From contig JBBHKE010000182.1 of NCBI GenBank assembly GCA_037447655.1, positions 59,145-123,144 on the forward strand: a DNA stretch of 64,000 nt. Reading direction: 5' to 3'. The notes under the pieces were generated by a model. The model had not been told where the DNA came from and did not search any database. It saw nothing but the letters and a program-made list of their open reading frames with translations. Below, in pieces: positions 4,056 through 10,586 of this stretch. The DNA is from Zygnema cylindricum. Its lineage: Eukaryota > Streptophyta > Zygnematophyceae > Zygnematales > Zygnemataceae. Position numbers and translations under genes: made by a program. The first letter of the stretch is position 1. Each line of letters begins with the position of its first letter.

Positions 4056-5095
4056 TGTAGAAATTAATGGTTTTAAGTATTTTCTAGGTCTGAATAGAAA
4101 GAAAGAAGCCGAGGCAGTCTTCCTCTAACTTCTCTCTCCAACTCTCAAACTTGTCGCAGTCACTAAGAAATTGGAGAGGAAGCTAGAGCCATGGCTACCT
4201 AGGCTATTCTGAGGTTTACGGGAAATTTATATTAGTTCGGGTTTAAAAGGTATGTGCCGGCGGCAGGAATTGATCGTTGGACCTACCGGCCGGCAGACAG
4301 GAAATAGTCGGTAGCCTTAGCCGTTAAGTCTAGGAGTCATGATACGTAGTATATAGTTTGATAGTTATTTAAATATGTATATGTACGATTATTCATTTAA
4401 CTATAATAGATTACGCAATATATAGATCCGGTAATATATAAAGTACGGATGACGGTACGGACTATAAATCAATACCGCGCATTTGTTTCGTAAATGAAAC
4501 AAATACCGCACATGTATTTATTATGGCTACGATTAAATTAGATTCTAATCGGACAGCCGCAATTAGCGCCGAGATCGCGGAGGAAGTTTTCGGCGGTTTG
4601 TGGCCATCGCCACATCGGATGACGCGTGGCGAAATTTCGTTGGATCGTGGAATCCCCGGAGATTATGGCATCGAATCCGGATATGACATGTGTCGACATT
4701 TAGGCCTTGTCGTACAATGTCCGTACCTAAAGTACACCGGCAGTTGTACTTTTGCGTACGGAACTCAATTCTGATTGGTTCCGTACATCAGTAGATAGAG
4801 TCTGTGAGAGAGATAGGACTTCGAAAAATTAGGAGATAAGACCCTCTCTCCCAGTGAGCTTCTATACAAAAGGTCAACTTTGACCCTCCATAACTTACTG
4901 CTCAGGAGAGCAAATTCAGAGATTCTTTTTGCTATCGACTCAGGGGAGTCTTGTCTTCACAAGGGTGAAGTTGGTCAGAGTTTTTGTCTGTCAGGGTGGC
5001 AGTTATTTTTGCCGAAACACAAAGGGGTCAGGGTTATCTTAGAGGCTTCTTGGAAGCTGTCCACTCTGAGGACTTATGGAGGTCTCAGAGTTTCA
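4056..5095 (+). repeat. 5' LTR of element A
   Basis: This 1040-bp LTR starts tgtagaaatt and ends gagtttca. Its right end is fixed by comparison with the 3' LTR of D, which ends at the same bases directly before its target repeat. The gag ATG (5076-5078) lies inside. The segment 4257-4345 is tRNA-like on the minus strand. Confidence 0.9.
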
Positions 5096-9446: not shown

Positions 9447-9662
9447 TGTAGAAATTAATGGTTTTAAGTATTTTCTAGGTCTGAATAGAAAGAAAGAAGC
9501 CGAGGCAGTCTACCTCTAACTTCTCTCTCCAACTCTCAAACTTGTCGTAGTCACTGAGAAATTGGAGAGGAAGCTAGAGCCATGGCTACCTAGGCTATTC
9601 TGAGGTTTACGGGAAATTTATATTAGTTCGGGTTTAAAAGGTATGTGCCGGCGGCAGGAATT
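9447..9662 (+). repeat. Truncated 3' LTR of element A
   Basis: The sequence matches the 5' LTR of A from tgtagaaatt to gcaggaattg with only a few differences, then diverges at about 9662. The remaining ~825 bp of LTR is absent. A 28-bp stretch (about 9663-9691) of unknown origin joins it to the TRIM. Confidence 0.85.
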
Positions 9663-9691
9663 GTTCTGGGGGCCGTTCCGAGAACCTCCAG

Positions 9692-9919
9692 TGTTGGATT
9701 GGCACGTGAAGCCAGTCCAATACGGGGTAGAATATGGAATATCCATACTCGAGCCGCCCGTAAGAAAATGGTACGGACCCGCCAGTCTCTACATCGAGCT
9801 GGTGGCACAGTGGTAGTGCATTCACAGCTGAAGTGAAAGGTCCCAGGTTCGAACCCTGGCCGGCTCAATTTTCCCAAGTGTGGGACATGCCGAATCCCGG
9901 ATTTCTAGGAAATCTAACA
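9692..9919 (+). repeat. TRIM 5' LTR
   Basis: 228 bp, TG...CA. It includes the tRNA-like segment at 9796-9866, with about 53 bp between that segment and the LTR end. Confidence 0.9.
9796..9866 (+). ncRNA. tRNA-like cloverleaf in TRIM 5' LTR
   Basis: The 71 nt fold by hand into a full cloverleaf. The acceptor stem is GAGCTGG with CCGGCTC, with one G-T pair. The D stem is GCAC with GTGC around AGTGGTA. The anticodon stem is TTCAC with GTGAA around AGCTGAA. The T stem is CCAGG with CCTGG around TTCGAAC. The A box (TGGCACAGTGG) and B box (GGTTCGAACCC) are close to the Pol III consensus. Position 33 is G instead of U and no CCA is encoded, so it is probably not a working tRNA. The D and T arms resemble initiator tRNA-Met. 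Confidence 0.75.
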
Positions 9920-9932
9920 TGGTATCGGAGCC
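9920..9932 (+). promoter_or_regulatory. TRIM primer-binding site
   Basis: tggtatcggagcc directly follows the TRIM 5' LTR. It differs by one base from TGGTATCAGAGCC, the common plant site complementary to the 3' end of initiator tRNA-Met. Confidence 0.85.
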
Positions 9933-9976
9933 AACGGGATTGCGGATGGTTTGACCGGCTTTCCCGTGAGGGGGGG

Positions 9977-10204
9977 TGTTGGATTGGCACGTGAAGCCGG
10001 TCCAATACGGGGTAGAATATGGAATATAAATACTCGAGCCGCCCGTAAGAAAAGGGTACGGACCCGCCAGTCTCTACATCGAGCTGGTGGCACAGTGGTA
10101 GTGCATTCACAGCTGAAGTGAAAGGTCCCAGGTTTGAACCCTGGCCGGCTCAATTTTCCCAAGTGTGGGACATGCCGAATCCCGGATTTCTAGGAAATCT
10201 AACA
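9977..10204 (+). repeat. TRIM 3' LTR
   Basis: 228 bp, the second copy of the TRIM LTR. Its end is the right end of the whole A/TRIM unit, directly before agtat. Confidence 0.9.
10081..10151 (+). ncRNA. tRNA-like cloverleaf in TRIM 3' LTR
   Basis: Same 71-nt structure as at 9796-9866. The only difference seen is one C-to-T change in the T loop (TTTGAAC), which weakens the B box slightly. Confidence 0.75.
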
Positions 10205-10586
10205 AGTATTTATAGTCCCAGATCTTTCGTGCAAACATAAGTTATTCTTGAACGTTCGCTTTATCATAAGACGCCTTAAGAGAAATCCAAATATCAATCG
10301 CCTTCTTCATTTTGATTTGTGACATAACTAGGTTCTCGGAGAGACACAGTTTTAGAGTATTTCGACCCTTTGAATTATTTTTCGCCCACGTTGGATCAGA
10401 CTCATCATCTGATCCATCCAAAATCTCCTTCAAACGTTCAATTTCAAAGTACGACTTAACCATATCCACCGAGTAAGCATATTTATGCCTATTAAAGAGA
10501 GGAATTATTGAAGACATGCTCATAACCTGTTGTTCTATGATTAGCGGTATAGGTGGAGCTGCAACAGTAGTTGTAGAAGTAGACAT
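10205..10586 (-). pseudogene. O gag N-terminal part
   Basis: The minus-strand ORF begins with ATG at 10586-10584 and runs 114 residues to a TAA. It has the copia gag layout: a short Thr/Pro-rich start, then IPLFNRHKYAYSVDMVKSYF and later IDIWISLKASYDKA. After the stop the same frame continues (MFARKIWDYKY) to the border with element A at 10205. Joining it to 4055 restores the gag frame. Confidence 0.8.

Follow-up and report, generated by a model that had tools for sequence, protein, structure and literature searches.

The window, by which we mean the whole 64,000-nucleotide stretch of DNA that was analyzed, contains a TRIM of 513 bp (positions 9692–10204) with a tRNA-like cloverleaf in each of its two LTRs. 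Judged by its structure, the element very probably represents a new family of Helenus-type TRIMs in which the cloverleaf is a structural part. It is mobile, and the host genome contains many copies, some of them young. Compensatory changes in the stems, the similarity of the upstream signals to those of host tRNA genes and the presence of the same cassette in unlike LTRs constitute evidence, at the level of sequence, that the cloverleaf is used and not merely carried.

Structure of the element

The element is composed of a 5′ LTR (9692–9919), a core of 57 bp (9920–9976), which is below protein-coding length, and a 3′ LTR (9977–10204), all read on the forward strand, as are the other features described here. 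Both LTRs are 228 bp long, are bounded by TG...CA and are identical at 223 of 228 positions; one of the five differences affects the B box of the 3′ LTR. The core begins with TGGTATCGGAGC and ends with GAGGGGGGG. Its first 14 nt (9920–9933; the commonest form is 15 nt long) form a primer-binding site (PBS) complementary to the host initiator tRNA-Met (iMet) plus CCA, and its last nine (9968–9976) form a polypurine tract (PPT). Two short LTRs, a short non-coding core, a PBS and a PPT are the features of a TRIM, and the initial annotation, which had described a miniature LTR element with 228-bp LTRs, is borne out in this respect. A SINE would have a Pol III head without LTRs, whereas the head found here lies inside LTRs accompanied by a PBS and a PPT.

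Each LTR contains a 72-nt cloverleaf sequence (9796–9867 and 10081–10152). Covariance-model scoring with Rfam RF00005 gave 55.2 and 52.5 bits, respectively, ARAGORN found both cloverleaves and called them tRNA-Gln(CTG), and the minimum-energy fold of the sequence is the cloverleaf. The complete tRNA-like cloverleaf initially described for each LTR is therefore real, its length being 72 and not 71 nt. A faster-filter Rfam scan of the whole window reported the first cloverleaf only (E 3.8e-9). The A box TGGCACAGTGG (9803–9813 and 10088–10098) and the B box (GGTTCGAACCC at 9846–9856, GGTTTGAACCC at 10131–10141) are in sense orientation within each LTR, as had been claimed. The anticodon loop of the 5′ LTR copy is AGCTGAA and U33 is missing. 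The folding energy of the cloverleaf alone is unexceptional (z about −1.2), and what makes it significant is its score under the covariance model and its retention among the copies, not folding energy.

The window copy lacks a target-site duplication (flanks TCCAG/AGTAT) and is directly preceded by part of a Copia LTR (9447–9666, which pairs with 4056–4275) lying outside the element. This combination indicates that the locus has probably been rearranged. The best matches of the neighbouring Copia element are only approx. 40% identical, and a search of a plasmid collection gave no match. The 3′ flank (10205–10218) is a 93% inverted match to 10021–10034 inside the 3′ LTR, a stretch that carries private changes; this match is perhaps tied to the missing target duplication.

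Copies, LTR families and mosaic LTRs

When the host assembly (2689 contigs, 352.8 Mb) was searched at the DNA level, at least 79 LTR matches were obtained, with scoring of 40 out of 1010 candidates. A search pattern of 38 nt from the 3′ end of the LTR, with up to three mismatches allowed, matched 421 times in the assembly and not at all in the control. The window locus was examined together with 39 further fetched loci, from which 70 full LTRs were collected. Perfect 5-bp target duplications were found at 24 of these 40 loci (the window is among the 16 without), and an identical LTR pair at 10 of the 25 loci having two or more full LTRs. An absence of other copies, which the initial annotation had named as an observation that would count against it, is contradicted by the 421 LTR-end matches and the duplicated targets. 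Four loci (L009, L013, L037 and L041) contain three or four full LTRs within one duplication, and contig C683 carries five LTR ends spaced 285–286 bp apart.

A pattern consisting of the B box, 40–70 nt and the primer site had 157 matches in the host assembly and none in the control. The copies fetched from the first of these matches, a subset in which decayed copies are under-sampled because each was picked by an intact B box beside an intact PBS, comprise at least three LTR families: A (that of the window) with its relative A2, B, and C. A2 is 85.8% identical to A over the LTR. The reference LTRs of A (positions 83–176) and B (74–167) are 88.4% identical over 95 nt, which correspond to the cloverleaf and its leader, and no further similarity between them was detected at E 1e-2. 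The stretch common to the A and C reference LTRs is only 23 nt long, around the B box, and the acceptor and D arms of family C are of another tRNA type; the capture of two different tRNAs may account for some of the variation that separates A from C.

Two loci contain LTRs assembled from different families. In L126, the order is an LTR with a C-type 5′ part and a B-type 3′ part, a B core, a B LTR, a C core and a C LTR. The junction within the mosaic LTR is located at AGGTCCC of the T arm. The locus is flanked on both sides by GGGAG, a duplication that is weak evidence for a single insertion because the flanks are GGGA-rich. In L040 (the same locus as L106), the 5′ LTR belongs to family A except for its D and anticodon half, which resembles that of C. 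A pattern search for mosaics of the reverse type (A or B 5′ half with the T arm of C) gave no matches. These mosaics, found at two loci and so few in number, would be explained by template switching at short stretches common to the families.

The PBS read TGGTATCGGAGC in 49 and TGGTATCAGAGC in 15 of 64 context strings, in which a locus cut twice may count twice and in which the search pattern had left the distinguishing base free. Exact host iMet genes end in GCTCCGATA (two genes) or GCTCTGATA (two genes), and since the two PBS forms fit these two 3′ ends, both host forms are matched. The iMet primer site proposed in the initial annotation is thereby supported.

Conservation of the cloverleaf and its flanking signals

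An Rfam-threshold tRNA match was obtained in 36 of the 39 further loci; the three others (L012, L021 and L047) gave no match at the Rfam threshold, perhaps through filter loss, as in the scan of the whole window. For the analysis of pairing, 44 distinct strings were reduced by removing L047, L100, L110 and L136, whose 5′ part is deleted or replaced, and the rows of L043, L123, L134 and L143 were dropped before counting, which left 36 distinct rows. In these, 710 of 753 cells (94.3%) are standard pairs, compared with 25–40% when the partners are slid by 1–3 positions. When the two T-stem pairs forced by the search pattern are left out, the values are 638 of 681 cells (93.7%) and 27–36%. Two-sided changes occur at 10 of 21 pairs, in 53 cells; none of 500 shuffles attained 53 cells, and 61 of them attained 10 pairs. 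The counts are not independent, because both the rows and the leaders are related. Families A, A2 and B alone (29 rows) are 95.6% paired with three pairs showing two-sided change, and family C alone (6 rows) is 90.2% paired with one such pair. Two-sided change is seen, for instance, in the anticodon stem, which is TTCAC/GTGAA in A and CTGAC/GTCAG in A2, and within B in the D stem, which is either GCAC/GTGC or GTAC/GTAC.

Compared with shuffles, whole LTRs of A and A2 fold strongly (z −2.2 to −4.4) and those of B and C weakly (z −0.15 to −2.1), and in A, A2 and C the antisense LTR strand folds comparably. A 12-bp hairpin occupies the 5′ tip of the window LTR (9692–9722); hairpins of 12–13 bp, also noted at L101 and L107, are found at this place in A, in most of the folded A2 copies and, with a quite different sequence, in one B copy. 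A second hairpin, TCCCAAGTGTGGGA (9872–9885), lies 3′ of the cloverleaf, and families B and C have other inverted repeats at this position. The whole-LTR structure also reveals an alternative fold, in which the leader GGACCCGCCAG (9775–9785) pairs with CTGGTGG (9799–9805) and GGTCC (9839–9843) of the cloverleaf.

Upstream of the cloverleaf, at a distance of approx. 30 bp, the window LTR contains the AT-rich box TAAGAAAA (9761–9768). A box of this kind is present at about this distance in the LTRs of all families, its sequence being TAATAAAT in the family-A leader that occurs most often, TATATAAAA in several B copies and TATAAATT in some C copies, and AT runs in the LTRs are 4–11 nt long at −38 to −23 versus 1–4 nt at −22 to −7. 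In a sample of 35 host tRNA genes, about half of them tRNA-Lys, the AT fraction likewise peaks (0.94) at −30 to −26. The cloverleaf is immediately preceded by the leader ACATC (9791–9795; variants of it stand there in other copies), and 28 of 33 distinct LTR leaders have CATC within their final 6 nt. Of the 35 host genes, 12 have CATC within the final 8 nt before the gene, compared with 10 of 525 background windows (binomial P approx. 1e-12). A candidate Pol III terminator, TTTT (9869–9872; second copy 10154–10157), follows the cloverleaf; TTTT within a few bases is usual in A, A2 and C and absent in B, and 12 of the 35 host genes have it within 20 nt. By virtue of the AT-rich box, the ACATC leader and TTTT, the likeness of the LTR to a tRNA gene extends beyond the internal boxes to the gene as a whole.

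This upstream anatomy favours transcription by Pol III, which we regard as somewhat more likely than not. For tRNA genes of angiosperms, the signals described are an upstream region rich in A/T, motifs of the TATA and CAA types and poly(T) (PMC11700998). The angiosperm-type CAA initiator is not enriched in the host (6 of 35 genes versus 7 of 35 in a control stretch), and a TATA box, TATAAATA, seen in the 3′ LTR of the window was rejected as a common signal, being private to that LTR among the 70 full LTRs. Directly 5′ of many host tRNA genes (L048–L077 and L146–L149) we observed CATC(A) or CACA, possibly a lineage-specific Pol III initiator. A lysine-type tRNA whose anticodon, CTA, resembles that of an amber suppressor was noted (L058, L092) close to a tRNA-Lys gene of contig C498.

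Possible roles of the cloverleaf and relation to known elements

The initial annotation had suggested that both the D and T arms resemble iMet and that the element may have captured a relative of its own primer. The first of these claims holds for the T arm, which is identical to that of host iMet at 21 of 23 nt and is the only arm close to it. When the window cloverleaf was compared with 37 distinct host tRNA strings, Cys (24) and Arg-CCT (24) scored above iMet (19; maximum of 100 shuffles, 14), and iMet was top-scoring for none of the seven cloverleaves compared, in a host set without some isotypes. Since other host tRNAs score higher, capture of iMet is unsupported, and the different tRNA type of family C also speaks against it; we consider it very unlikely. 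Still less credible is that the element amplifies a real gene supplying tRNA-Gln to translation, as might be thought from the complete cloverleaf and the ARAGORN call. The anticodon differs among the families (CTG, CTC, CTT and CTA), and when the labels are ranked by their score against the window copy, host tRNA-Gln is outside the top ten. Of the 29 distinct A, A2 and B rows, 24 share the anticodon loop AGCTNAA and none has U33. With neither U33 nor an anticodon in agreement with the tRNA body, the cloverleaf is no working tRNA. The loop AGCTNAA includes the self-complementary AGCT, which might permit kissing of two RNAs; retroviral dimer sites offer an analogy.

We propose tentatively that the cloverleaf acts as the R repeat of the element, a model that we consider possible rather than probable. 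The LTRs of this non-autonomous retrotransposon would contain a tRNA-gene-like promoter cassette, from which Pol III, possibly aided by the TATA-like box, would initiate at the 5′-LTR cloverleaf or immediately upstream of it, read through the weak T tract of the 5′ LTR and terminate 3′ of the cloverleaf of the 3′ LTR, at its T tract. The cloverleaf would thereby become the repeat needed for strand transfer, the initiator tRNA-Met would prime reverse transcription and a Copia-type element would supply the enzymes in trans; the 5-bp duplications and the iMet primer fit Copia-type mobilisation. The cassette common to the families would also let co-packaged families recombine. We infer the polymerase, the RNA ends, the co-packaging and the Copia partner from these features. 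The candidate terminator is short, and family B, which has no TTTT, would need another stop. A more speculative and rather doubtful reading is that the cloverleaf is a portable R-region module, the 95-nt cassette providing start, R and, in three of four LTR types, terminator. As this cassette is nearly the sole homology of unlike LTRs, strand transfer between families would take place inside the cloverleaf and would create new LTRs, such as that of L126. If the R-region reading is true, it explains the origin of new Pol III-driven LTR families.

The element could instead be an ordinary TRIM, transcribed by Pol II, that absorbed a SINE head or a tRNA pseudogene, with the cloverleaf as a passenger. 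The AT-rich box approx. 30 bp before the cloverleaf could serve Pol II equally well, and TTTT would favour premature termination by Pol III. In addition, within the young family-A burst the variability of the cloverleaf is not below that of its flanks (diversity 0.020, versus 0.026 in the LTR before it and 0.017 after it), which counts against constraint. Against this explanation, which we regard as unlikely, stand the cassette as the sole part found in common between A and B LTRs, the compensatory changes in the D and anticodon stems and a leader resembling those of host tRNA genes.

The closest known elements are those of Helenus, a named TRIM group with a tRNA-like sequence in the LTR that is defined by structure (Kojima 2024, PMC10886601); in the literature searched, the name was found together with the word retrotransposon in two papers, this one and a meeting report in which it is mentioned. 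In the available text of PMC10886601, as in the element described here, Helenus has a PBS and a PPT, in each LTR a tRNA-like sequence that includes A and B boxes and, in fungi and plants, 5-bp target duplications, its length of 311–1263 bp includes the 513 bp found here, anticodon and tRNA type disagree in many families, several families occur per genome and tandem arrays are known (in one fish family). When tested for, the tRNA-derived A and B boxes inside the LTRs, the 5-bp duplication and a length within this range were all found in our element. A Pol III promoter is likewise proposed for Helenus, where it is unproven for the group in general (PMC10886601). The hosts reported in the same text comprise fungi and animals, with Selaginella moellendorffii, whose element has a 120-bp LTR and an 85-bp core, as the only plant; an apparent streptophyte alga as host, a 228-bp LTR and a 57-bp core differ from the Helenus reported there, and its account, as far as the available text goes, is without upstream tRNA-gene elements, compensatory changes or inter-family mosaic LTRs (PMC10886601).

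Cassandra is also a TRIM with a small Pol III gene inside the LTR and forms LTR-core arrays, but its gene is 5S rRNA and not tRNA, and the hosts investigated in PMC7215508 are vascular plants. Ajax, also a TRIM whose LTR contains the promoter of a small RNA, differs in having a partial 5S sequence, a tRNA-Leu primer and two nemerteans as hosts (PMC10886601). A Cassandra or 5S identity was rejected for the window element, in whose LTRs no 5S rRNA was found; Rfam gives tRNA only. Retrozymes are small non-autonomous LTR elements that carry a structured RNA, the hammerhead ribozyme, in the LTR. They differ from the window element, since at Rfam thresholds the window shows only tRNA. The parallel with Cassandra drawn in the initial annotation is sound, whereas the suggested novelty of a tRNA counterpart is not, because this class has already been published as Helenus (PMC10886601).

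A search for Zygnema and streptophyte TRIM literature gave nothing pertinent among the best 10 of 936 and the best 10 of 300 matches. As far as our searches show, in literature other than subscription papers and preprints, the algal host, the upstream elements, the structural pairing test and the mosaics are additions to Helenus, as are the at least three LTR families in one, apparently zygnematophyte, genome. A zygnematophyte host is suggested by the gene for ribosomal protein uL4 that lies next to a host tRNA-Arg gene: among the best 120 matches, the top-scoring one is from Mesotaenium endlicherianum (85% identity), and identity is 79% with Klebsormidium, 76–81% with named ferns, liverworts and mosses and approx. 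73–77% with named angiosperms. Our results extend tRNA-bearing TRIMs to the apparent algal sister group of land plants, with several families and recent activity. Counts of tRNA genes can be inflated by such elements, because prediction programs (ARAGORN in this case) call them tRNA genes. A first look for tRNAs in the host genome returned 24620 candidates (63 scored), and tRNA-like repeats may be common there.
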